DNA from: a virus
Reading direction: 5' to 3' (one strand)
IMG/VR virus record: IMGVR_UViG_3300023178_003128
Span: 1-62,152 of that record
DNA length: 62,152 nt
Part shown: positions 1,491-31,743 of the stretch, piece by piece
Numbering within the stretch: the stretch's first letter is position 1
How the letters are laid out: each line of letters begins with the position of its first letter
The notes under the pieces: generated by a model
Database searches by the model: none
Told to the model about the DNA's origin: nothing
The model's input: the letters and a program-made list of their open reading frames with translations, nothing else
Made by a program: the position numbers and the translations under genes

Positions 1491-2639
1491 ATGAAAAACT
1501 ACCCTTACGGTGTGGTTCCTCCACACGCAAAAAAATTCACAGAATTAGATTTATCTCTTTCACGGGCTTTATTCAGTTTACAACATCCAGTATATGTCAA
1601 TCTAACCAAAGGACTAAAGTTTGTTGAACGAACTATTAGACCTTTAAGTGATATCGATACATCTGATGTTGATTTAGCTGGTAAAACAAATGGTGCATAT
1701 ACACAATCAGCTCGTTCATCTGGCCGTGGCGAATATGCTGCTGATGTTCATGCTAGTATTGAACAACAAGGATATAAATTAGACAAAGAACCAATCTCTG
1801 TTGTTATTTGTCCAGATAAAAAAGAACACGCTTGTAATGGTCGAACACGATTAGAGAAATTACAACAATTAGGCTTTGAAAATGCCATTGTTGATGTTTT
1901 TGAAGCTGAAACTTGGAATGCGTTTCATGTCCACAGTTTAAAAACAAATCAATATGCTGATCCATATTCACCATTTTTAGCAATAGACCTTGAACAATAT
2001 GCTTTAAAGGCATGGAGAAGTGGAGACCTCAAAAGAACATTTGAGGGTGTTTATGAGGCTGTCAAAGAAATTGGCGGAACATCATTCAAAGATAAAACCT
2101 ATCACAATATTGCAAGTAATGTTGTTGGTTTCCATGATAGAGATTTACAGTTGTTTGCTCATACAGACGCTTCCGCTAAAGACTGGTTGAATAAAAATGG
2201 ATATATCAATAATTTGAATAACAATCAAATTTATTATTATCCTTATGCGAGTTCTTCATGGTCAAAGTGTTTTGTTAATGCAGCTTCTTTTTATAATGAA
2301 TTGATTAGTTCTGGAAAACCAGTAAAAGAAATTAGAGTAATTATTCAAACTGGCACCTTAAATGGCGCTGATGGTGAATATTGTTGGAAAAATAGAATTG
2401 ACAGATTCAGAAGAAATTGGGCTGATGTGTATAATTTAATTGAAAAAACATATTTCATAAATTCAGAAAGAAAATCGATTATTAAATTATATGGTGCAAT
2501 TCCGGCTGTAGCATCGATTGCTGACGAGTGGCCATTAGACAAATTGGTATTATTTAATAAAGGCGTGTTAGCTGACAAATATTTTCAAGACCTTGATGAT
2601 GATAATAACTTATCTAATTTTCTTGAGGATGCTGCTTAA
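1491..2639 (+). CDS. ParB/sulfiredoxin-fold domain protein
   Basis: A 382-aa protein. Residues about 83-140 fit the ParB N-terminal pattern: a helix with ASIEQQGY, a strand PISVVICPDK, then ACNGRTRL at 114-121 in place of the GxxR/GHRRL nucleotide-binding motif, then LQQLGFENAIVDVFEAE. ParB-type folds bind CTP or act as nucleases or DNA-binding proteins. The rest (about 140-382) is unassigned and mostly helical. A DNA-binding, host-takeover or nuclease role is possible but not shown. It stands alone between the P1 operon and the structured RNA. Confidence 0.55.
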   Translation: MKNYPYGVVPPHAKKFTELDLSLSRALFSLQHPVYVNLTKGLKFVERTIRPLSDIDTSDVDLAGKTNGAYTQSARSSGRGEYAADVHASIEQQGYKLDKEPISVVICPDKKEHACNGRTRLEKLQQLGFENAIVDVFEAETWNAFHVHSLKTNQYADPYSPFLAIDLEQYALKAWRSGDLKRTFEGVYEAVKEIGGTSFKDKTYHNIASNVVGFHDRDLQLFAHTDASAKDWLNKNGYINNLNNNQIYYYPYASSSWSKCFVNAASFYNELISSGKPVKEIRVIIQTGTLNGADGEYCWKNRIDRFRRNWADVYNLIEKTYFINSERKSIIKLYGAIPAVASIADEWPLDKLVLFNKGVLADKYFQDLDDDNNLSNFLEDAA

Positions 2640-2646
2640 TTTGGCC

Positions 2647-2675
2647 TTGACATTTGCCATTCTTTATGTTAGGAT
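2647..2675 (+). promoter_or_regulatory. sigma70-type promoter P2
   Basis: TTGACA (2647-2652, perfect consensus), 17-nt spacer, TAGGAT (2670-2675) with TGT extended -10. Expected start is about 2682. It begins eight bases after the stop of the ParB-like gene and drives the structured RNA and possibly the operon from 2955. Confidence 0.75.
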
Positions 2676-2681
2676 GGATAC

Positions 2682-2936
2682 ATAAAATACCTAATTGATG
2701 GTAGGTTAAGGCCATCAAGTTGAGTGAGCAACAACCGAGATAAACGGACCGTGGGCGCCTTACAAGAACCAATGATTTAGGCAAGCACTCACAAAATCGT
2801 TGGGAGAACCAATCAGAGAAGTTCGACTGGTATAAGGGCATTTGCGTCCGTGAGAGCCAGTATAATTAAATCTCTAAACTAGCCGCAAGTCTTTTAGGCA
2901 GTTCAGACTTACAAAAGATTAACTGCCTTTTTTTTT
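2682..2936 (+). ncRNA. Structured non-coding RNA or riboswitch-like leader (about 255 nt)
   Basis: A 315-nt stretch without a gene holds a complete transcription unit: promoter P2, a structured region and an intrinsic terminator. GC over 2701-2880 is about 45% by my count, against about a third in flanking genes. The 5' end can fold as an H-type pseudoknot: stem 1 is 2689-2693 with 2702-2706 (5 bp) and stem 2 is 2695-2701 with 2712-2718 (7 bp), with loops of 1 and 5 nt. Further helices: 2721-2726 with 2786-2791 (6 bp), 2757-2760 with 2779-2782, and 2826-2830 with 2857-2861. AGAACCAAT occurs twice (from 2765 and 2806). At the 3' end 2887-2892/2905-2910 (AAGTCT/AGACTT) competes with the terminator stem. 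It could be a stand-alone phage RNA or an attenuator leader for 2955-5968. I do not recognise an Rfam family. Confidence 0.65.
2896..2936 (+). terminator. Intrinsic terminator of the structured RNA
   Basis: AGGCAGTT (2896-2903) pairs with AACTGCCT (2921-2928), an 8-bp stem with a 17-nt loop, followed by T2929-2936. The alternative AAGTCT/AGACTT hairpin uses the terminator's loop and encloses its 5' arm, so the two either exclude each other or form a pseudoknot. Confidence 0.8.
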
Positions 2937-2954
2937 AATAATATAGGAATTGTT

Positions 2955-3206
2955 ATGGCTGAAATTGACAATAAAGAAGACCAAATAGTTGAAATATCAA
3001 ATGAAGTTGATGAACTATTAGTTGAACTATCAACCAAACATAAACAACATCCACTCAATCTAGCATCAATTATACTAGCCCGATTAATGGTTATGTGTAA
3101 TGCTACAAACTGTTTAGATGAATTTGTTAAGATTGTTGAACAGATTGAAGGTGATATTGATAATCTTACTGTTGGAGAAAAATCAAAAGATGAGGTCATA
3201 CATTAA
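2955..3206 (+). CDS. 83-aa acidic helical protein of unknown function
   Basis: An acidic protein with an N-terminal coiled-coil-like stretch (residues 4-30, rich in E, D and I) and a central helix with two Cys (around 48-55). Family not recognised. First gene after the structured RNA's terminator; no separate promoter is visible in the 18 nt between, so it depends on read-through from P2 or an unseen start. Weak ribosome site AGGAA; its TAA overlaps the next ATG by one base. Confidence 0.6.
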   Translation: MAEIDNKEDQIVEISNEVDELLVELSTKHKQHPLNLASIILARLMVMCNATNCLDEFVKIVEQIEGDIDNLTVGEKSKDEVIH

Positions 3207-3772
3207 TGGGTATGAAACTTAAATCATTATTTCACACAAATGTTGGTGCATATGAAATAGAAAATGTTGATTATGATTCAATGATTGATTATATCTACAA
3301 AAATATAAAGATTGATGATGGTGTAAAAGTATCAAATATTTTAGGTTGGCAAAGTCAACATTTTAAACAAGAAGACCATGAAATATTTAAACCTATTTTT
3401 GATGAAGTTAACGAAATGGCCAAATCAATGTATTTTCTTTATGGCATTGAACAAACTCCAGAACCATTAAGATGTTGGGTTAATGTTAATGGTAAAAATG
3501 CTTCTAATTCTAGCCATCATCATGCACCATGTTTTTTTTCAGTTGTTGTTTACTTAAAAGTTCCAGAAAATTCTGGAAGTATTGTTTTTGAAAGAGATGA
3601 TACCTTACTTCATGTAATTCATTACAATAAAATAACACATGATAATTTACCAGGTTATAGTGTTACACCTAAACAAGGAACAGCACTTATATTTCCTGCT
3701 AATTTGAAACATTCGGTTACACCAAATTTATCAGATGATGACCGAATATCAATTGCTATGAACTTTAGATAA
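3206..3772 (+). CDS. Fe(II)/2-oxoglutarate-dependent oxygenase
   Basis: A 188-aa double-stranded beta-helix oxygenase of the kind common in marine T4-like phages (TIGR02466-like). Visible features are the iron-ligand region SSHHHAPC (His 104-106), the strand SVVVYLKVPENSGSIVF, the distal ligand in FPANLKHSVTPN (His169), and the 2OG-binding Arg180 in DRISIAMNF. The expected length and both ends are intact. The family uses O2 and 2-oxoglutarate to hydroxylate an unknown substrate. It is co-translated with the gene before it and shares an operon with a second, unrelated-fold oxygenase at 4937. Confidence 0.8.
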   Translation: MGMKLKSLFHTNVGAYEIENVDYDSMIDYIYKNIKIDDGVKVSNILGWQSQHFKQEDHEIFKPIFDEVNEMAKSMYFLYGIEQTPEPLRCWVNVNGKNASNSSHHHAPCFFSVVVYLKVPENSGSIVFERDDTLLHVIHYNKITHDNLPGYSVTPKQGTALIFPANLKHSVTPNLSDDDRISIAMNFR

Positions 3773-6569: not shown

Positions 6570-7019
6570 ATGAAAACACCAATTTTATTGGGCGTTTTGT
6601 TATGGTCTTGTTTTGTGGTTTCAGCCCCGCTGGAAGATTTTGAATTTAAGAGTCCAGCCTTTAATGGTAATGGTTATTCTGCTCATGTTTTAACAATTGA
6701 GAATCAGGAACACTCTCGTAAGAAAGCTATTGCAGAAAAACTTGAAGCAAAACTCAAAGAAGCTGAAAGAGAAGCTAATAGCACCAATTTATCCAAATTT
6801 CTTAGCAACCTAGAATCAAGGATATATGCACAAATTAGCCAAGATTTGGCAACAGCAATGTTTGCTGATGATTCGTCATCTCCAACTTCTGGCACATTAA
6901 CATTTGAAGGAAATGTAATTTATTGGGATAAAAGTTCAGGTGATATAGAATTACAAGTTACTGATATAGCAGGCTCAACAACAACAATTACAATACCTTT
7001 GGGTGATTTTACTTTTTAA
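6570..7019 (+). CDS. csgF: Curli assembly factor CsgF homologue
   Basis: 149 aa with a Sec signal peptide (residues 1-19, ...FVVSA). The mature N-terminus FEFKSPAFNGNGYSAHVLTIENQEHSRK matches the CsgF segment that plugs into the CsgG pore. A charged helix follows (about 48-72), then a C-terminal beta region (TLTFEGNVIYWD...). In bacteria CsgF sits at the outer face of CsgG and presents the curlin nucleator. First gene of the operon; its last base is the first base of the csgG ATG, so translation is coupled. No truncation is apparent. Confidence 0.85.
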   Translation: MKTPILLGVLLWSCFVVSAPLEDFEFKSPAFNGNGYSAHVLTIENQEHSRKKAIAEKLEAKLKEAEREANSTNLSKFLSNLESRIYAQISQDLATAMFADDSSSPTSGTLTFEGNVIYWDKSSGDIELQVTDIAGSTTTITIPLGDFTF

Positions 7020-7819
7020 TGAAACACTTATTATTACTACTATTAGCTTTAGTGCTAGTTGGTTGTGCTACTGGTCAAGCGATGCGAGGCGAATACGACC
7101 CGCCAATGGCAGTAGAAAAATCGACTGTTAAAGAATTTGATTCAATAGCAAAACCAAAACTAGGCAAAATAACAGTAGCTGTTTATAATTTTATAGATAA
7201 AACAGGACAAAGACGACCAAGTCAGAATACATCCAGTTTTTCTACTGCTGTTACACAAGGCGCTGAAAGTTTTTTAATTAAAGCACTAAAAGATGTTGGT
7301 GAATGTGGTTGGTTTGATGTGGTTGAAAGAGTTGGATTAGCAAGTCTAACACAAGAAAGACAAATTATACGCCAGATGCGAGAAGCGTATGAAGGTGCTG
7401 ATGCAAAACCACTTATGCCAATGAAATTTGCAGGAATGTTAATTGAAGGTGGTATTACCGGTTATGACCAATCAACAAGAAGTGGCGGAAACGCTGCTAG
7501 ATTGCTTGGCATAGGACCATCAACAAAATATAGTGAAGATATTATTACAGTAAGTTTAAGAGCAGTCAGTGTCAATACTGGTGTGGTATTGGCTGCGGTT
7601 AATGTTCAAAAAACAGTTTATTCTACCGCTGATAGTTTAGCTGTTTTAAAATTTTATGACCAAGGCACACAAGTTTTTGAATTTGAATCTGGTCTTACTT
7701 TAAATGAGCCAGCAACAATGGCAGTTAAAGCTGCTGTTGATGCAGCTGTAGTTGAACTCATTAAAGAAGGCGAAAGGAAGAAAGTTTGGGAATTTGCTAA
7801 CAGTCAGGAGACAAAATGA
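7019..7819 (+). CDS. csgG: Curli secretion pore CsgG homologue (lipoprotein)
   Basis: 266 aa with lipoprotein signal LVGC (Cys16). Recognisable CsgG segments: KITVAVYNFIDKTGQRRPS (about 51-69), SSFSTAVTQGAESFLIKAL, GWFDVVERVGLASLTQERQIIRQ, KFAGMLIEGGITGYDQSTRSGGNAARLLGIGPS, and DIITVSLRAVSVNTGVVLAAVNVQKTVYS, the transmembrane beta-hairpin region. CsgG forms a nonameric outer-membrane channel that secretes unfolded curlin. Full family length, all blocks present. Overlaps csgF by one base and the curlin gene by four. Confidence 0.92.
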   Translation: MKHLLLLLLALVLVGCATGQAMRGEYDPPMAVEKSTVKEFDSIAKPKLGKITVAVYNFIDKTGQRRPSQNTSSFSTAVTQGAESFLIKALKDVGECGWFDVVERVGLASLTQERQIIRQMREAYEGADAKPLMPMKFAGMLIEGGITGYDQSTRSGGNAARLLGIGPSTKYSEDIITVSLRAVSVNTGVVLAAVNVQKTVYSTADSLAVLKFYDQGTQVFEFESGLTLNEPATMAVKAAVDAAVVELIKEGERKKVWEFANSQETK

Positions 7820-8586
7820 ATAAAATAGTAACAATGTTTTTTACATTATTACTGACAATGACGGTTGCGTTTGCAGCTGATAATAGCATTTATATTGACC
7901 AAGTGGGCGGAAGTTCTACAATTGATATTACACAAGATGGTAGTTCAAACAAAGTTTATGGAGTTGGAGATAGTGAAGGAACAGCCGCTACATTTACTGG
8001 TGATAGTCAGACAATTGATATAAGACAAGTTGGTTCAAGTAACTTATTAGGAATTGATTTAAATACTTCGGTTACTTCGGGTGTTGGTATTGATTTAACA
8101 TATTACATTACAGGTTCTAACTCTGTAGCAAGTATTGATGTTAATGGTGACGGTCAAGGTACCGCATCAAACAATACAATTGACATTCAAATGACTGGTG
8201 ATTATAATGACCTAACATTTGATTTACTTGGAACAGGTAATAGTTTAACTGCAACAGCAACTGGTGGTAATTATAACGATTTTGATTTTACCATTAATGC
8301 TGATTCAACCACTTCAAATGTAGCAATTAGTGGTGGCGGTGGTAATACAACAACACTTAATTTATCAAGTGATGATGCAACTGTTGATATTACAGCTGCT
8401 GGTGCAAGTAATACACTATCAGTAACACAAAGCGGTCTTGGTGGAACAAATGGTATGAACTTTGATTTAGATATTACTGGTTCATCTAACTCATTTACTT
8501 CAACACAAGCCGGCTCACAAGACAATGACATTGATGTGAATATTACTGGTTCAAGCAACACATGGACCATTTCACAAGATGACTAA
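7816..8586 (+). CDS. Curlin-like amyloid subunit (CsgA/B type)
   Basis: 256 aa, Sec signal peptide (cleavage after AFA, about residue 20). The rest is Asn/Gln/Ser/Thr/Asp/Gly-rich with imperfect repeats of about 20-25 residues carrying the strand-turn-strand pattern of curlin (such as YIDQVGGSSTIDITQDGSSN, DIRQVGSSNLLGIDL, DITGSSNSFTSTQAGSQDND). It lacks Cys and has almost no Lys or Arg. Longer than bacterial CsgA (about 150 aa). Expected to be exported by CsgG and to polymerise outside the cell. ATGA coupling to csgG and to the FecR gene ties it to the secretion system. Confidence 0.85.
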   Translation: MNKIVTMFFTLLLTMTVAFAADNSIYIDQVGGSSTIDITQDGSSNKVYGVGDSEGTAATFTGDSQTIDIRQVGSSNLLGIDLNTSVTSGVGIDLTYYITGSNSVASIDVNGDGQGTASNNTIDIQMTGDYNDLTFDLLGTGNSLTATATGGNYNDFDFTINADSTTSNVAISGGGGNTTTLNLSSDDATVDITAAGASNTLSVTQSGLGGTNGMNFDLDITGSSNSFTSTQAGSQDNDIDVNITGSSNTWTISQDD

Positions 8587-9683
8587 TGAAAAAGTTTCTA
8601 GCACTCTTATTGTTAATACCCCTATTAGCTGAGAGTGCTATAGGAACTATCACAGACCACAAACACGACCCTCTATCAATCAAAAGACAAGATAAGACAC
8701 TAGAAGGTATTATGGGTACCGGTGTCGAAATGCAAGATACATTACGCACAGGCCAAGGCACGGCTGAAATTACATTTGAAGACCAAACACAAGTTCAAAT
8801 GACACAATCAGCCAAACTTATCATTGATGAGTTTGTCTATGACCCAGCAAATAGTGATGCAAGTAAATTGGCATTAAAGATTGCATCTGGAACGGCTAGA
8901 TACGCTTCTGGACAAATAGCAAAGAATAATCCACAGAAAGTTAAAATTAAAACGCCTAGCGCAACGGTATCGGTCCGTGGTACTGATTTTACTGCAACTG
9001 TTGATGAGATAGGTGCAACAACAGTTATTCTATTACCAAGTTGCCCAGCAGGTTGGCTTGATATGGAAAGAGATTGTATTACAGGTGCAATTGAAGTTGA
9101 ATCCTTAGGTGGTGTTGTTTTTATGGATAAACCATTTGAAGCAACTCGTGTGCCTAACCTAGAAGCAAAACCAACCCCACCAGTTATTGTTGATTTAACA
9201 GAGGAGATGATTCGACAAATTATTATTGTTGGACCACCTAAAGAAATTAAAGAACAAGATGTTGCAGAAGCCTCAAATAATATATTAGATCAAAGTGAAT
9301 TAGATAAAGACTTACTAGAAAATGAACTTGATAAAGAAGATGAAAAACTTTATGAAAACAAACTGGCACAAAATCTATTAGATAGAGATTTTCTTAAAAA
9401 CATTTTAGATATATTAGATTTACAATTAAAACTAGCACAAGAAAGAACATTATCAACACAAGAAAAGAATGAGATACTTCCTGATTATATACCTGACCAA
9501 GGTGTAACAGCAACAGTTGATACAATCAATGTTGAACTTTGTATTGATACGACCGGTAGTGATATTGCTTGTGTCAGAGTTCCCACACACCAAGAAGCTA
9601 CCATAAGACAAATACAAGGCGCTGTTGATATAACAAATAGGGTGAATAGTGAAGGCACGACCATAATTACAACTAAACAATGA
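8586..9683 (+). CDS. Exported FecR-domain protein
   Basis: 365 aa, Sec signal peptide (1-18). The FecR domain spans about 40-145: VEMQDTLRTGQGTAEITFEDQTQVQM, LKIASGTARYASGQ, and KVKIKTPSATVSVRGTDFTATVD. Two Cys (153, 164) may form a disulfide. Residues about 225-285 are a long charged coiled coil (LDQSELDKDLLENELDKEDEK...), followed by a C-terminal domain with a second Cys pair. This is not a Fe-dicitrate sensor: it lacks the cytoplasmic tail and membrane helix of classic FecR. As an infrequently discussed partner of CHASE2 cyclases, it may act as a periplasmic ligand or scaffold (inference). Overlaps both neighbours. Confidence 0.75.
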   Translation: MKKFLALLLLIPLLAESAIGTITDHKHDPLSIKRQDKTLEGIMGTGVEMQDTLRTGQGTAEITFEDQTQVQMTQSAKLIIDEFVYDPANSDASKLALKIASGTARYASGQIAKNNPQKVKIKTPSATVSVRGTDFTATVDEIGATTVILLPSCPAGWLDMERDCITGAIEVESLGGVVFMDKPFEATRVPNLEAKPTPPVIVDLTEEMIRQIIIVGPPKEIKEQDVAEASNNILDQSELDKDLLENELDKEDEKLYENKLAQNLLDRDFLKNILDILDLQLKLAQERTLSTQEKNEILPDYIPDQGVTATVDTINVELCIDTTGSDIACVRVPTHQEATIRQIQGAVDITNRVNSEGTTIITTKQ

Positions 9684-9802
9684 AAACTATAATTCTTATT
9701 TGTGTATTTTTAATTGGTTGCACCACACCTGTGGAAGGCAAGTATCCTGTCAACGAATATTTGAGGCCAAATGGTTGGAACGACCATTTTTGGGTAGCAT
9801 GA
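9680..9802 (+). CDS. 40-aa lipoprotein
   Basis: A tiny frame in a different phase from its neighbours, starting at ATG 9680 (ATGA overlap with the FecR gene) and ending TGA 9800-9802 (overlapping the next ATG at 9799). It encodes MKTIILICVFLIGC, a lipobox with acylated Cys14, then TTPVEGKYPVNEYLRPNGWNDHFWVA, an aromatic tail of 26 residues. Coupling on both sides and a clean lipobox make it convincing despite its size. Perhaps a small partner of the CsgG channel or an anchor for the FecR protein (inference). Confidence 0.65.
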   Translation: MKTIILICVFLIGCTTPVEGKYPVNEYLRPNGWNDHFWVA

Positions 9803-11298
9803 GATACTTAATCACAATACTGTTATTTGTCTGTTCTAATGCGTTTGCTTTAGACATCCTAATTTATCACAACAACTATGCTTACACTGATTCAAAGTCT
9901 GGACTTGAAGGGCAAGGATACACTGTGACAGGCACAACATCAACAACAACTGATTCAGCATCAACTCTGGCAAACTATGATGTAGTATTTGACCAACTAT
10001 ACAACAATAACTGTGGATCAACTTGTCGTGGTAACTATGACACTTATGTTAAAGACGGTGGCACTCTAGTTATCGTGGGCGAGAACTCAAACTTTTCTGG
10101 TAGAAACTCAAACATTGTGAGTTTGATTGAAAACAAGTTTGGAGGCACATTAGATTTAGGTTCTGATGTTTATGGTGGAGAATATTACACGGGTGGCACG
10201 AACAACACAACCAATACATCAATTAGTGGCGCTGATGATGGCGGACAATATATTGCTGGATCAAGTATTGCCACAACATCAGACGGCACTTGGGTAGCAA
10301 AGACCTCTGGTGGCGCCATAATTTGGATGATGTGGCGTGGCAGTAGTTTGCCAAGTGGCTACACGGGTTCTGTTATAGTGACATTTGACATTAATCAGTT
10401 CCAAGCAAGTTATGATAGTGATGCTACCTGGGAATTCTTTGATGATGTTGTTTATTATGGTATCAATGGTGAAATGCAATCAAGTTCACCAACAACATCT
10501 ACCACAACAGGAACAAGTGGTGGTATAACATCAGCACAGTCAACATCTAAGAGCCAAGCAAGAACAAGAAGCGATAGTTACACAAATGGTAATACTGTTT
10601 ATATTGACCAGATTGGTAATAATAATACCGTAACAATCGAACAAGATGGCACAGCAACAAATACTATCAAAGGAATATATCTAAATGGTAATGATGCTGG
10701 TGTAATAAATGGAAGTTCAAATACAATTGAAATGAGACAAGGTGCTGACACAAGCACATCATCAAACTTAATTGAGTTTTCTATTATTGGTAGCACAAAC
10801 GATGTATTGTTATACCAAGATAGATTGAATACAGGATATGAAGACACACAAGCTGGTGGTGGCCATACAATACAATTAGATTTAGATGGTGATTTAAATG
10901 ACATTGATATTATTCAAAGAAATAACTATGATACCAATGGTGGTCATTTTGTAAATTTAGAAGTAACAGGTGATAGTAATGTTTTAGATTTAAAACAAAT
11001 TTCTGACTATGGTAAAAATATATTTGGTAAAGTAACAGGTGATTCAAATAATGTTACTGTTTATCAACACGATGATTCAAACAAATACCTAGATTTCAAT
11101 TTAACTGGTGATGGTCATACAATTGATGTTGAACAAACCGGTACAGGTGCTCATAATGCTGAGATTGATTTAACATATGGTTCAGCTTCATCAACAGTTA
11201 ATTTACTTCAACAAGGTTCAACCAACCAAAGTTACTCAATAGAACAAACTTGTTATACAACAGGTGGATGTTCAACCACCGTAACTCAAGGCCAATAA
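9799..11298 (+). CDS. Large curlin-repeat protein with N-terminal globular domain
   Basis: 499 aa from ATG 9799, chosen over the upstream in-frame start at 9700 because it begins a clear signal peptide (MRYLITILLFVCSNAFA) and couples to the lipoprotein. Residues 18-245 form a globular domain (ILIYHNNYAY..., YDVVFDQLYNN, GGTLVIVGENSNFSGRN, GGAIIWMMWRG) resembling ThuA/GATase-like alpha/beta domains. A Ser/Thr linker (about 230-265) follows, then about 230 residues of curlin-type repeats (VYIDQIGNNNTVTIEQDG; VTGDSNVLDLKQ; GDGHTIDVEQTGTG). It could be the nucleator (CsgB role) or an adhesive fibre tip. The final repeats carry two Cys. Confidence 0.8.
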   Translation: MRYLITILLFVCSNAFALDILIYHNNYAYTDSKSGLEGQGYTVTGTTSTTTDSASTLANYDVVFDQLYNNNCGSTCRGNYDTYVKDGGTLVIVGENSNFSGRNSNIVSLIENKFGGTLDLGSDVYGGEYYTGGTNNTTNTSISGADDGGQYIAGSSIATTSDGTWVAKTSGGAIIWMMWRGSSLPSGYTGSVIVTFDINQFQASYDSDATWEFFDDVVYYGINGEMQSSSPTTSTTTGTSGGITSAQSTSKSQARTRSDSYTNGNTVYIDQIGNNNTVTIEQDGTATNTIKGIYLNGNDAGVINGSSNTIEMRQGADTSTSSNLIEFSIIGSTNDVLLYQDRLNTGYEDTQAGGGHTIQLDLDGDLNDIDIIQRNNYDTNGGHFVNLEVTGDSNVLDLKQISDYGKNIFGKVTGDSNNVTVYQHDDSNKYLDFNLTGDGHTIDVEQTGTGAHNAEIDLTYGSASSTVNLLQQGSTNQSYSIEQTCYTTGGCSTTVTQGQ

Positions 11299-11308
11299 AT
11301 AAGAAACT

Positions 11309-13309
11309 ATGAATAAATTATTATCGCCTTGGTGGGCACTTTTATTACTTTTTATATTAATCCCGATTCGAGTAAATGATTATGCTTTTGTTGAATCATT
11401 ACGATTAAGATATTTTGATACACTGATAACATCAGTACCAGAAACAACAAACAATATACATCTGGTTAATATTGACGAATCAGCACTTGAAAAACATGGA
11501 CAGTTTCCATTTAATCGTGGTGTTTATGCTGACATCATTGAAGATTTATATAAAAGAAAAGCCGGTCTAGTTATATTTAATATAATGATGCCTGAGAAAG
11601 ATAGGTCAGGTGAAGATTTTAAATTAATAGAAACATTAAAAAATTATCCTATCATATTACCTAATGCTGGTTCAGATGTAACAAAAAATGAACCAAAAAA
11701 TCCAGGTGCAGTTTCAATTGGTATTAGTAGAGACAAAACAGTTGAATATCCTGGTATCATAGCCAACATAAAAGAATTAGAACAACTTGCTTCTGGTGTT
11801 GGCATTGTAAATACATTTCCTGAGATTGATGGTGTGACACGAAGAATGCCATTAGTCATTTCAAGTAATAATATTCTTTATCCTAGTTTATCACTTGAGA
11901 CTTTGAGAGTTATTGCTGGTGACCCAAGTTTTCAAATTAAATTTAATGAACTTGGTGTTCAAGCATTAAGAATACCACAGTTTGGTAAAATACAGACGGA
12001 TACCATTGGTCGTATATGGATTGATTGGCAACAAAAAGGTGTCGAACATAGTCTAACTAAACTTCCAGATTCTTTTGATGATGGTGTTGTAATCGTAGGT
12101 GTGACAGCGAAAGGATTATCAAATCCAATTTCTACAAGCATAGGCGAAGTATGGCCACATTATGCACAAGCTTCAGTTGTAGGAACTTTGTTCAATAATG
12201 TTAATATATCAAGGCCTGATTGGGCTGACGGTGCTGAATTACTCAGCATTGTTGTTTTATCAATCATACTACTTTTAATATCGAGGTGGAAATATGGAAT
12301 TATTCCTAACATTGGTATTATTTACGGTTTGTATTATACTTCGATGTATGTTTTCCAAAGAGAAAATATATTATTGGACGCTTCTTTTCCTATTGTCAGT
12401 GTGGTTATTGTTTATAGTATTGGTTATACGCTTAAATTTCTATCTGAATTAAGACAAAAACTACAAATTAAAAAACAATTTGGAACTTATCTATCACCAG
12501 CTCTTGTAGAAAAACTACAAAAGAATCCTGAGTTACTTAAACTCGGTGGTGAGACACGAGAATTATCAATTATGTTTTCAGATGTTCGTGGTTTCACAAC
12601 CATATCTGAACACTATGGAAAAGATGTTCAAGGTTTAACTCAAATTATGAACCGTTATATGACCGCTATGACACAAAAAATACTTGATAACAACGGAACA
12701 CTTGACAAGTATATTGGTGATGCTCAGATGGCATTTTGGAATGCCCCACTTGATGACAGAGACCATGCTAAAAATGCTGTTAAGACAGCTCTTCAAATGT
12801 TGGAAGACTTAAGGAGTTTTAACCATGAAATCTCAAAAGAAGGTATCCCGCCGTTCGGTATGGGATTGGGTATTAATTCTGGCGATGTGGTTGTGGGTAA
12901 TATGGGCAGTTCTCAGCGCTTTGACTATACTTGTTTGGGCGATAGCTGTAATCTCGCATCAAGGTTAGAGGGTCAAAGTAAAAATTATGGTGTTGAATTA
13001 ATCATTGGTAAAAGAACCGCAGATTTAATACAAGATGAATATGATGTTGTTGAATTAGATACAATTGCTGTAAAAGGTAAAACACTAGGTGTCAAAATAT
13101 ATACAGTGACACCTATGCCAGATAAAACAGAACATAAAAAGTTCTTAAGAGCATATTATGCTGGTGAATGGAAAACGGCTTTACTAATGACAGGTAAATT
13201 AAGAATACAAAATTCTCAACTAATTAAATATTATGATTTAATGGCAGAAAGATTAAAACAAGGTGTTCCTGCTAAATGGGATGGAGTATATCACGCTACT
13301 TCGAAGTAG
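11309..13309 (+). CDS. CHASE2-domain class III adenylate cyclase
   Basis: 666 aa. N-terminal signal anchor (6-22); periplasmic CHASE2 domain (about 30-300: RYFDTLI, VNIDESALEKHGQFPFNRGVYADII, GLVIFNIMMPE, DGVTRRMPLVI); three membrane segments (about 308-378); class III cyclase domain (415-590). Catalytic residues are present: metal Asp425 in FSDVRGFT, Asp471 in DKYIGDAQMAFW with Lys467, substrate-specifying Asp539 in FDYT, and Asn548/Arg552 in NLASRLEG. The Lys/Asp pair points to ATP over GTP. It should make cAMP in the cytoplasm in response to a periplasmic cue. Full bacterial length; same strand and 10 nt after the curlin-repeat gene. Confidence 0.9.
   Translation: MNKLLSPWWALLLLFILIPIRVNDYAFVESLRLRYFDTLITSVPETTNNIHLVNIDESALEKHGQFPFNRGVYADIIEDLYKRKAGLVIFNIMMPEKDRSGEDFKLIETLKNYPIILPNAGSDVTKNEPKNPGAVSIGISRDKTVEYPGIIANIKELEQLASGVGIVNTFPEIDGVTRRMPLVISSNNILYPSLSLETLRVIAGDPSFQIKFNELGVQALRIPQFGKIQTDTIGRIWIDWQQKGVEHSLTKLPDSFDDGVVIVGVTAKGLSNPISTSIGEVWPHYAQASVVGTLFNNVNISRPDWADGAELLSIVVLSIILLLISRWKYGIIPNIGIIYGLYYTSMYVFQRENILLDASFPIVSVVIVYSIGYTLKFLSELRQKLQIKKQFGTYLSPALVEKLQKNPELLKLGGETRELSIMFSDVRGFTTISEHYGKDVQGLTQIMNRYMTAMTQKILDNNGTLDKYIGDAQMAFWNAPLDDRDHAKNAVKTALQMLEDLRSFNHEISKEGIPPFGMGLGINSGDVVVGNMGSSQRFDYTCLGDSCNLASRLEGQSKNYGVELIIGKRTADLIQDEYDVVELDTIAVKGKTLGVKIYTVTPMPDKTEHKKFLRAYYAGEWKTALLMTGKLRIQNSQLIKYYDLMAERLKQGVPAKWDGVYHATSK
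13296..13309. terminator. Palindromic hairpin at convergent gene ends
   Basis: CTACTTCGAAGTAG is a perfect 14-nt palindrome ending the cyclase gene, followed on the plus strand by T-rich DNA (13311-13325). It may be a weak terminator for the plus operon. The T-richness is also Lys codons of the opposing gene, so this is tentative. Confidence 0.3.
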
Positions 13310-29046: not shown

Positions 29047-29958
29047 ATGACAAGCTTTGCAAATCTCAAACGCAATCGTTCAAGTTTAGAAAAACTAACT
29101 AAAGCGATTGAATCAACCACAAATCAATCCGAAAACAGTAACAGTTCAGAAGATACCCGTTTCTGGAAACCAGAAGTTGATAAAGCAGGTAACGGTATGG
29201 CCGTTATTCGTTTTTTACCAGCTCCTGCTGTTGATGGTGATGATGCCCTTCCATGGGTTCGTTACTTTGACCACGGTTTTCAAGGACCTGGTGGTTGGTA
29301 TATTGAAAACTCTCTGACTACATTGGGTCAAAAAGATCCTGTTTCAGAATACAACTCAACACTGTGGAATTCTGGTATTGAAGCAAACAAAGATATTGCT
29401 CGTAAGCAAAAAAGACGCTTACACTATATTGCAAATATCTATGTTGTTTCTGACCCAGCACATCCAGAAAATGAAGGACAAATTCGTTTATTTAAATTTG
29501 GTAAGAAAATCTTTGATAAGATTTCTGAAGCAATGAATCCTGAGTTTGCTGATGAGACACCTGTAAATCCATTTGACTTATGGGAAGGTGCTAACTTCAA
29601 ACTTAAGATTAGAAATGTAGAAGGTTACCGTAACTATGATAAATCTGAGTTTGCTGACAAAGAAGCGCTTCTTGGTGGTGATGACCAAAAACTTGAAAAC
29701 TTATGGCAACAAGAATACTCTTTAAAAGAATTCTTAGATGCTAAAAACTTCAAGTCATATGACCAACTTAAAGCTAGACTTGATAAAGTATTAGGTTTTG
29801 ATGGTGGTGATGCTACACCAAAAACAACAGCAGAGGATGCTGTAATTGATAATACACCTGATATCTCAGAAGATGTATCAAGTGGTTTAAATCAAGTTGA
29901 TGCCGCTATTGCTGAAGATGATGATTTAGATTATTTCAAAAATCTCGCTGAAGGATAA
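29047..29958 (+). CDS. 32: gp32-like single-stranded DNA-binding protein
   Basis: 303 aa. T4 gp32 plan: basic N-terminal cooperativity segment SFANLKRNRSSLEKLTKAI (LAST-type), core with RFWKPEVDKAGNGMAVIRFLP, RYFDHGFQGPGGWYIENSLTTLGQKDPVSEYNSTLW and KIFDKISEAMNPEF, and an acidic C-terminus (about 265-303) for partner binding. It coats ssDNA in replication and repair. The protein has no Cys, so the His/Cys zinc site of T4 gp32 (Cys77, 87, 90) is absent. Strong terminator follows. Confidence 0.92.
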   Translation: MTSFANLKRNRSSLEKLTKAIESTTNQSENSNSSEDTRFWKPEVDKAGNGMAVIRFLPAPAVDGDDALPWVRYFDHGFQGPGGWYIENSLTTLGQKDPVSEYNSTLWNSGIEANKDIARKQKRRLHYIANIYVVSDPAHPENEGQIRLFKFGKKIFDKISEAMNPEFADETPVNPFDLWEGANFKLKIRNVEGYRNYDKSEFADKEALLGGDDQKLENLWQQEYSLKEFLDAKNFKSYDQLKARLDKVLGFDGGDATPKTTAEDAVIDNTPDISEDVSSGLNQVDAAIAEDDDLDYFKNLAEG

Positions 29959-29975
29959 GATTTAAATCTTAGAAG

Positions 29976-30002
29976 AATACCCGCTCAGGCGGGTATTTTT
30001 TT
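29976..30002 (+). terminator. Strong intrinsic terminator after gp32
   Basis: AATACCCGC (29976-29984) pairs with GCGGGTATT (29989-29997), a 9-bp stem with TCAG loop, then T-run to 30002. It separates gp32 from the opposing tail genes and may work in both directions. Confidence 0.85.
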
Positions 30003-31743
30003 ATGCCGTTCTTGCGACTAATTGTCCGCTATCTCGTTTTTCTCTTTGAATAGTAACATCTTTACTTACAATGTTTGTATTTGTTGTTGTTGGTGCATTA
30101 ATAATTGTTGGATTTTCCGCTTTCATCATACTTCTTTTACCCACAGCGATATCATTTGAAGCCATAGAAATTGAAGAACCTTGTTCATCACCAGCCTGTG
30201 CAATTAAACCAACAATTTTAGGTCCTCTGACACCAACCTGAGAAAACCATTTACTATCTTTTAGATTTTCAGATGCTAGTGTAAAGTTTCCTTGTTCTAA
30301 TGCAGCTTTTGTGTTTGGCCATTTAGGCCACCATTTGCCCATATTAAATGCAAGGTCAATCATTGCACCTTTACCTGCTTCGTTTGCTTGAGCATAACCA
30401 GGTGTTTGTTCTGCTATTTTTTTGTGATGTTCAAAATCTTTTTCAAACATACTTGCAACTTCTTCATCACTAAATCTTCTATCCATAGAAGACGGTAATG
30501 TATTACCTATCAAGTGACCAACACCAACAGTCCAAAGTCCTTCCGTGTCTTTGTAAGGAGTATTTTCCCAACCCTCGTGTTGTATTATCATTGATTTGGT
30601 ATCATCAAAGGACATACTTGGAACAGCTTCTGGAGTAGTTTCTGCTGATGGTGGTTCAGTAATAGTTGTTTCTGGCGTTACAGTTGGAGTTGCTCCTTCT
30701 TCTACCGCATCTTGTTTTTCTCCCTCTCCACCAGGTTGATTAAATTCTTTCCACAGTTGATATATTTCATATGCAGACCAAACTGATAAACCTATATTAA
30801 CAATAGCAGCTATCCAACCAACAACAGGTATGGCTGCTAAACCAGCAGCTGTTGCTAGTCTTACTCCAACTTTTGCCATAAGTTTTGGTGATTTTCTTTT
30901 TGCAAAATTTAAAAAGCGAGTCCATTTTGAATTTGAACCTTTTAAAGCTTTCATTTGTTTTTGTTTTGTTAAGGCTTCTTTTTTATCAAGTTCAGCAAAT
31001 TTTCTCGCTTGTCTATTTTTTAATCCAACTTTCGCTTTGTTTTTTAATTTATTAATGACCGCTTTGCCGACTTTGTATTGAACAACCGCACCGGCTGTTG
31101 CAGCTGCAGCTGCTTGATTTTGTTGTAATTCTTTATCAATGTTTAAAGTGGCGTTTGGTTTTGGTGCAGGAAGTTGTTGTCCTGTAATAAAAGATAAAAT
31201 ATTGTTTAGACCAATAGCAATCATATCACCAATTCTTAAAAAGAAGTCTTTAACTTTATCAAAGAAGCCTGCGTTTTCTATTGTTTTTCCTACTGTTGAT
31301 TCTTCACTTGAAAATATATCTTTTATAAAGCCTGAAAAATCACTCCACTTCTCTTTGAAAAATTTAGGTAATTCTTCTGAAAACATTTTTTTAAATGTTT
31401 CAACTAATGCTTCACCTATACCTTTTAATTGGGGTTCAAATTCTTTGTATAATTTTGGTAGGGCATATAAAGCACCCATAGCCAAAATCACACCTTTAAT
31501 TATTTTAGAAAATAAACTTTCTTTTTTCTTTTCTTTTTCTTCAACAGTAACTTCAACTTCTGGAGTTGGAGATATTTCACTACCTTTTGGAATTTCAATA
31601 GCTGTAGAAACATTTCGACCGGTTCTAAGTTTTACATATTCAACAAAGTCTTTTGCTATAGCAGAAAAGCTTTCAGTAATAACTGAATAAACATCTAAGC
31701 TTATTGTTCTTTGTCTTTCTAAGGTTGGTGAAGTATCTGCCAT
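30001..31743 (-). CDS. Tail structural protein with C-terminal T4-type lysozyme
   Basis: 580 aa. Residues 1-75 are variable; 78-98 a hydrophobic helix (IIKGVILAMGALYALPKLY); about 100-190 amphipathic helices; 200-340 Ala/Lys-rich with a second hydrophobic block (LAAIPVVGWIAAIVNIGLSVWSAY). After a Pro/Thr linker, residues 378-535 are a GH24 lysozyme: IIQHEGWENTPYKDTEGLWTVGVGHLIG with Glu390, Asp399 and Thr405, then LAFNMGKWWPKWPNTKAAL. The hydrophobic/helical front resembles a tape measure, so this is probably ejected from the tail to cut peptidoglycan at entry. Starts 2 nt after the 656-aa gene's stop. Confidence 0.75.
   Translation of the reverse strand: MADTSPTLERQRTISLDVYSVITESFSAIAKDFVEYVKLRTGRNVSTAIEIPKGSEISPTPEVEVTVEEKEKKKESLFSKIIKGVILAMGALYALPKLYKEFEPQLKGIGEALVETFKKMFSEELPKFFKEKWSDFSGFIKDIFSSEESTVGKTIENAGFFDKVKDFFLRIGDMIAIGLNNILSFITGQQLPAPKPNATLNIDKELQQNQAAAAATAGAVVQYKVGKAVINKLKNKAKVGLKNRQARKFAELDKKEALTKQKQMKALKGSNSKWTRFLNFAKRKSPKLMAKVGVRLATAAGLAAIPVVGWIAAIVNIGLSVWSAYEIYQLWKEFNQPGGEGEKQDAVEEGATPTVTPETTITEPPSAETTPEAVPSMSFDDTKSMIIQHEGWENTPYKDTEGLWTVGVGHLIGNTLPSSMDRRFSDEEVASMFEKDFEHHKKIAEQTPGYAQANEAGKGAMIDLAFNMGKWWPKWPNTKAALEQGNFTLASENLKDSKWFSQVGVRGPKIVGLIAQAGDEQGSSISMASNDIAVGKRSMMKAENPTIINAPTTTNTNIVSKDVTIQREKRDSGQLVARTA

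Follow-up and report, generated by a model that had tools for sequence, protein, structure and literature searches.

Background

Type III toxin-antitoxin (ToxIN) loci are laid out as a promoter, a pseudoknotted RNA, a terminator and then a gene. In the T-even phages T4, T2 and RB69 an H-type pseudoknot (PDB 2TPK) lies at the 5' side of the gene 32 mRNA leader, and the T4 gene 32 operator acts at translation (PMC3014915, PMC535899). T4-like marine phages carry structured 5' leaders before metabolic genes, namely the manA, wcaG and PhotoRC-II leader RNAs of cyanophages (PMC2864571). The curli-carrying T4-like methylophage Melnitz has a tmRNA directly behind an early promoter, glutamine riboswitches are present in Melnitz-like phages, and six terminators in total are predicted in the Melnitz genome (PMC9004378).

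The DNA analyzed here (62,152 nt, hereafter the window) is the IMG/VR record IMGVR_UViG_3300023178_003128, from a T4-like myovirus that carries a cluster of curli genes. Judged from its sequence it is a virus of bacteria with a distant kinship to Melnitz, the nearest named phage by flap endonuclease (49% identity). At 6570-13309 of the window the curli cluster (CsgF, CsgG, curlin repeats) is followed by a FecR-domain protein and then by a CHASE2 plus adenylate/guanylate cyclase protein, which together appear to be phage cargo of an unusual type. The genome also encodes ribosomal protein bS21 (PF01165, 6234-6494) and a carbamoyltransferase (PF02543/PF16861, 21397-22971).

Organization of the locus

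The features of the locus are listed below in window coordinates. L240 is the related record IMGVR_UViG_3300031695_001027.

1491..2639, + strand: orphan gene of 382 aa, directly upstream of promoter P2; missing from L240
2647..2675, + strand: promoter P2, sigma70-type by sequence, TTGACA - 17 nt - TAGGAT, with TG one base 5' of the -10
2682..2936, + strand: predicted transcript of ~255 nt with no protein gene; start placed from the promoter
2689..2718, + strand: pseudoknot 1, H-type by sequence geometry; S1 5 bp, L1 1 nt, S2 7 bp, L2 0, L3 5 nt
2721..2791, + strand: possible long-range pairing, by sequence complementarity, between UGAGUG (2721-2726) and CACUCA (2786-2791), the latter within the loop of hairpin 2769-2803
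2744..2851, + strand: predicted central domain (2740-2856, z -2.43); closing helix 2744-2761/2835-2851, hairpins 2769-2803 and 2808-2831
2887..2928, + strand: pseudoknot 2, by sequence pairing; AAGUCU/AGACUU (2887-2892/2905-2910) interleaved with the terminator stem
2896..2937, + strand: intrinsic terminator from a terminator scan; 8-bp stem, 17-nt loop, 9 T
2955..3206, + strand: first operon gene, 83 aa, function unassigned; ortholog in L240 (47%)
3206..3772, + strand: 2OG-Fe(II) oxygenase, PF13759 and phrog_81, by profile match

A sequence-only reading of the region had described promoter P2, about 255 nt without a gene at about 45% GC in an AT-rich genome, a 5' pseudoknot, a strong terminator and a 2OG-oxygenase operon from 2955. 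P2 was recovered at 2647-2675 with the hexamers and spacing given, and the + strand of the RNA region held no coding ORF. No decayed gene was found when six frames were compared with PHROGs, four with Pfam and one, by tblastn, with phages. The GC enrichment held and the figure did not: GC is 41% over the 255 nt and 46% over 2686-2862, compared with 34% for the contig, and the enrichment is mild, since 5.7% of all 255-nt windows are equally rich. An operon does start at 2955; its first gene encodes the 83-aa protein, which has no credible match in Pfam or PHROGs, and the oxygenase comes second. The 382-aa orphan product has no homologue in Pfam, PHROGs, PDB or the viral, genome, phage or plasmid collections. 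The orphan gene was considered as a partner of the RNA and set aside, as it has no homologue and its structure model was useless.

Predicted structure of the RNA

The 5' pseudoknot was found exactly as first described, with S1 ACCUA/UAGGU at 2689-2693/2702-2706, S2 UUGAUGG/CCAUCAA at 2695-2701/2712-2718, an L1 of 1 nt and an L3 of 5 nt. It begins 13 nt past the -10 of P2. Counting both strands, the contig has three compact pseudoknots of this class, and two of them fall within genes, leaving pseudoknot 1 as the sole intergenic one. A scan of 130 promoter matches found a full-size knot of this type at most 90 nt downstream of P2 alone, with weaker ones at two others.

The terminator, too, was found as described, with the stem AGGCAGTT/AACTGCCT at 2896-2903/2921-2928 followed by 9 T; its loop of 17 nt is longer than usual. 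It is one of two strong terminators in 62 kb. The second lies at 29975-30001, between gp32 and the convergent gene 30001-31743. The AAGTCT/AGACTT pairing had been read as a hairpin that competes or pseudoknots with the terminator stem. The pairing stands, while competition is not required, since an H-type pseudoknot with the terminator stem fits (S1 6, L1 3, S2 8, L2 1, L3 10). Alternative pairings exist in the RNA, none of them decisive, and no partner of the 5' arm of the terminator is prominent as an antiterminator. The best competitor pairs AAGGGCA (2834-2840) with the terminator's 3' arm and sits inside the central helix.

Compared with dinucleotide shuffles the whole RNA is not more stable (z -1.17). 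Subdomains are modestly so (2682-2720, z -2.36; 2740-2856, z -2.43; 2884-2936, z -2.12), with boundaries picked after inspection. At least one H-type pseudoknot was present in 53 of 500 shuffles and two in 1 of 500; these counts are a guide and not a p-value, because the limits on loops and stems were fixed with the feature already in view. The central domain may alternatively be closed by a helix at 2750-2758/2844-2852. A direct repeat, AGAACCAAT, occurs at 2765-2773 and 2805-2813; in both places it overlaps a predicted hairpin on the 5' arm.

Promoter class and the syntenic relative

The pattern TTGAC-N-TG-N-TA...T was searched outside long ORFs in the window and in 60 fetched stretches of related phages. 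It gave 67 intergenic copies, 52 of them with an ORF start at most 50 nt away, and P2 belongs to this promoter class, which is used across the phage group. Among the 40 longest promoter-to-ORF gaps listed, P2 alone has a script-found terminator ahead of the next ORF. The longest gap (L257:2131) holds the tRNA cluster of the relative L257 and is the one other real long gap checked. The gap at L256:13369 was rejected as an artefact of the ORF filter, a short gene lying immediately downstream of the promoter. The earlier observation that the operon from 2955 has no other visible promoter was confirmed for the class of P2, the scan covering sigma70-type promoters. A T4-type late promoter ahead of 2955 was considered and rejected: the motif TAATAATA at 2936 carries no meaning because it is found 21 times in the window.

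L240, whose endonuclease is 85% identical, served as the one relative in the syntenic comparison, a small sample. Its gene order is the same, with orthologs of g272, g570, g2955, g3787, g4013, g5642, g6018, g6234, CsgF and CsgG. From the g1166-like gene to the g2955 ortholog it holds only a TTGACA-17-TAGGAT promoter (L240:4877, - strand), 30 nt ahead of the next gene. Neither the RNA nor the terminator nor the 382-aa orphan gene is present at the syntenic place, and L240 gave no 2OG-oxygenase match. Because L240 has the promoter without the insert, the RNA appears to sit between the operon and its apparent promoter as a lineage-specific insertion; loss in L240 is the less simple alternative. 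P2 and the L240 promoter probably share descent, which falls short of proof because the whole promoter class is alike.

Searches for homologues

The sequence-only reading had recognized no Rfam family, and Rfam release 15 agreed, with no match at gathering score and none credible at E≤10. No match to the RNA was obtained by blastn against phages and plasmids. Exact 14- to 18-mers of the RNA, searched in viral and genome collections, led only to a contig of the same strain among the matches listed, and the remaining k-mer matches had no BLAST or model extension where examined. The sole other copy found, IMGVR_UViG_3300017986_002361, is of the same strain and identical in the RNA. A single-sequence covariance model (R1), of limited reach and with itself recovered as positive control, found no homologue in 100 related virus records plus Melnitz (101 in all), giving one chance-level match (E 2.9), and on the fetched loci it found itself alone.

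Several known identities were rejected. A tmRNA, one-piece or permuted (RF04321), was excluded by ARAGORN and Rfam, both negative on the window and positive on relatives. Permuted tmRNA genes occur in the related phages L235, L237, L243, L247, L263, L269, L272, L277, L280 and L283, with tag peptides that vary (e.g. ANDAFYGEERLAA and ANESVYKLAA). No group I intron was matched in the window by Rfam. A type III toxin-antitoxin system was set aside, there being two 9-nt copies only, no tandem repeat array, and no ToxN-like match for the first downstream gene. Antisense complementarity of the RNA to the rest of the window is at chance level (12-mers: 1 found, 1.6 expected).

Interpretation

Promoter, RNA and terminator form a real unit that looks like an insertion, contains two plausible pseudoknots and has no relatives found; its function, like the three-dimensional fold of the RNA, we infer. 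The sequence-only reading had offered an independent ncRNA or a leader. The leader has gained from the L240 synteny, and the L257 tRNA genes and the Melnitz tmRNA, as parallels, keep the ncRNA nearly as likely. We tentatively take the region to be the 5' leader of the operon from 2955, acting as a terminated leader (attenuator), at somewhat less than an even chance. This leader is preferred, only modestly, to a stand-alone RNA on account of the syntenic L240 and because no second promoter was seen. The layout of an attenuator is present, with promoter, RNA and intrinsic terminator 5' of the operon and no other sigma70-type promoter detected. The lack of homologues in Rfam, phages, plasmids and the 101 records fits a lineage-specific regulatory insertion and not a widespread riboswitch. 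Against the leader count the unremarkable whole fold (z -1.17), the lack of a standout antiterminator, and the L240 operon, which does without the RNA, so that regulation by it would not be essential.

As a terminated leader the RNA would be transcribed from P2 with a start near 2682. Its 5' end would fold into the compact pseudoknot, shielding that end, and the branched central domain would follow. Polymerase would stop mostly at 2937 and free a stable RNA of ~255 nt, while a fraction, regulated or constant, would read through. Alternatively, read-through may occur on a presumed signal, termination being blocked by a trans factor or by the pseudoknotted terminator folding in another way. Either way, read-through would carry transcription into the 83-aa gene, then the 2OG-Fe(II) oxygenase and the genes after it. 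A bolder form of the leader, distinctly improbable, would make it a novel type of phage leader RNA: the terminator would itself form an H-type pseudoknot, another one would cap the 5' end, and knotting would decide between release of a stable RNA and read-through into the 2OG-Fe(II)-oxygenase gene set.

A stand-alone structured phage ncRNA, with a protein or RNA of host or phage as its target in trans, is possible and nearly as likely as the terminated leader; the genes from 2955 would then be expressed otherwise, for example from an unrecognized late promoter. It comes so close because the promoter class also serves tRNA genes, as ahead of the L257 cluster, and because a T4-like relative, Melnitz, keeps its tmRNA directly behind an early promoter (PMC9004378). 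Together the structured RNA, its promoter and its terminator make up a complete gene, a stable RNA would need the 5' pseudoknot and the terminator that are both present, and a free RNA accounts for its dispensability in L240. A trans-acting RNA is harder to reconcile with the position exactly between the operon and the apparent operon promoter, with complementarity at chance to the rest of the window, and with the absence of a homologue from every collection searched. Rather unlikely is a 'moron'-like insertion of ~1.5 kb (1376-2937) comprising the orphan gene and its 3' end, in which the terminator insulates and the RNA is mostly 3'-UTR with no sequence-specific job. The orphan gene and the RNA are indeed both missing from L240 at the syntenic place, the terminator also stops transcription arriving from the orphan gene, and the fold of the RNA as a whole does not stand out. 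Yet a strong promoter between the orphan gene and the RNA would be superfluous for a plain 3'-UTR, two H-type pseudoknots are rare in the shuffles (1/500), and the promoter-to-gene gap is exceptional within its class.

The control by 2-oxoglutarate, SAM or preQ1 suggested earlier found no support: there was no Rfam riboswitch match, and L240 keeps the operon while showing no 2OG-oxygenase match. More generally, control of the 2OG-oxygenase operon by a metabolite riboswitch, whether for one of these ligands, for glutamine or of a new class, is very improbable. Aptamers usually recur, and the RNA at 2682-2936 does not: the 101 related phage records gave no homologue, and neither did the pattern scans of the viral and genome collections among the matches listed. 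The best Rfam riboswitch score, for SAM_alpha, was 12.3 bits, where the gathering score is 36. What speaks for a riboswitch is the position, promoter and terminator, which are riboswitch-like, and the glutamine riboswitches of Melnitz-like phages (PMC9004378).

Should the proposed role of the terminated leader be true, the locus illustrates how a small RNA module can come to separate a phage operon from its promoter by insertion. Until relatives or expression data emerge, this orphan RNA without homologues is of no more than local interest.

Comparison with known systems

One close likeness in structure is to the T-even gene 32 leader. Both phages are T4-like, and in both an H-type pseudoknot with a short L1, here by sequence geometry, stands on the 5' side of an mRNA leader, here a proposed one. 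The T2 gene 32 knot reportedly has an L1 of 1 nt and an S2 of 7 bp, a compact geometry like that of pseudoknot 1. The RNA differs in its position, which is not ahead of gene 32 (gp32, PF08804, is encoded at 29047-29958), and in the central domain and terminator that follow the pseudoknot. Pseudoknot 1 seems like the gene 32 leader knot in shape and place; membership among gene 32 operators is not claimed because gp32 is encoded elsewhere and the likeness is one of geometry.

The order of elements is the same as in ToxIN loci, from which the locus differs in having no tandem repeat array and in its first downstream gene, whose ortholog occurs in L240, a phage that lacks the RNA. With the cyanophage manA, wcaG and PhotoRC-II leaders it would have in common a structured 5' leader in a T4-like phage; it does not match those Rfam families. 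Compared with the Melnitz tmRNA and glutamine riboswitch, it matches neither tmRNA nor glnA models and has a different operon behind it. All are structured RNAs behind an early promoter in curli-carrying T4-like phages of the same broad group, and the proposed role, if true, would mean one more leader RNA in a group of phages whose tmRNA and riboswitches are already known.
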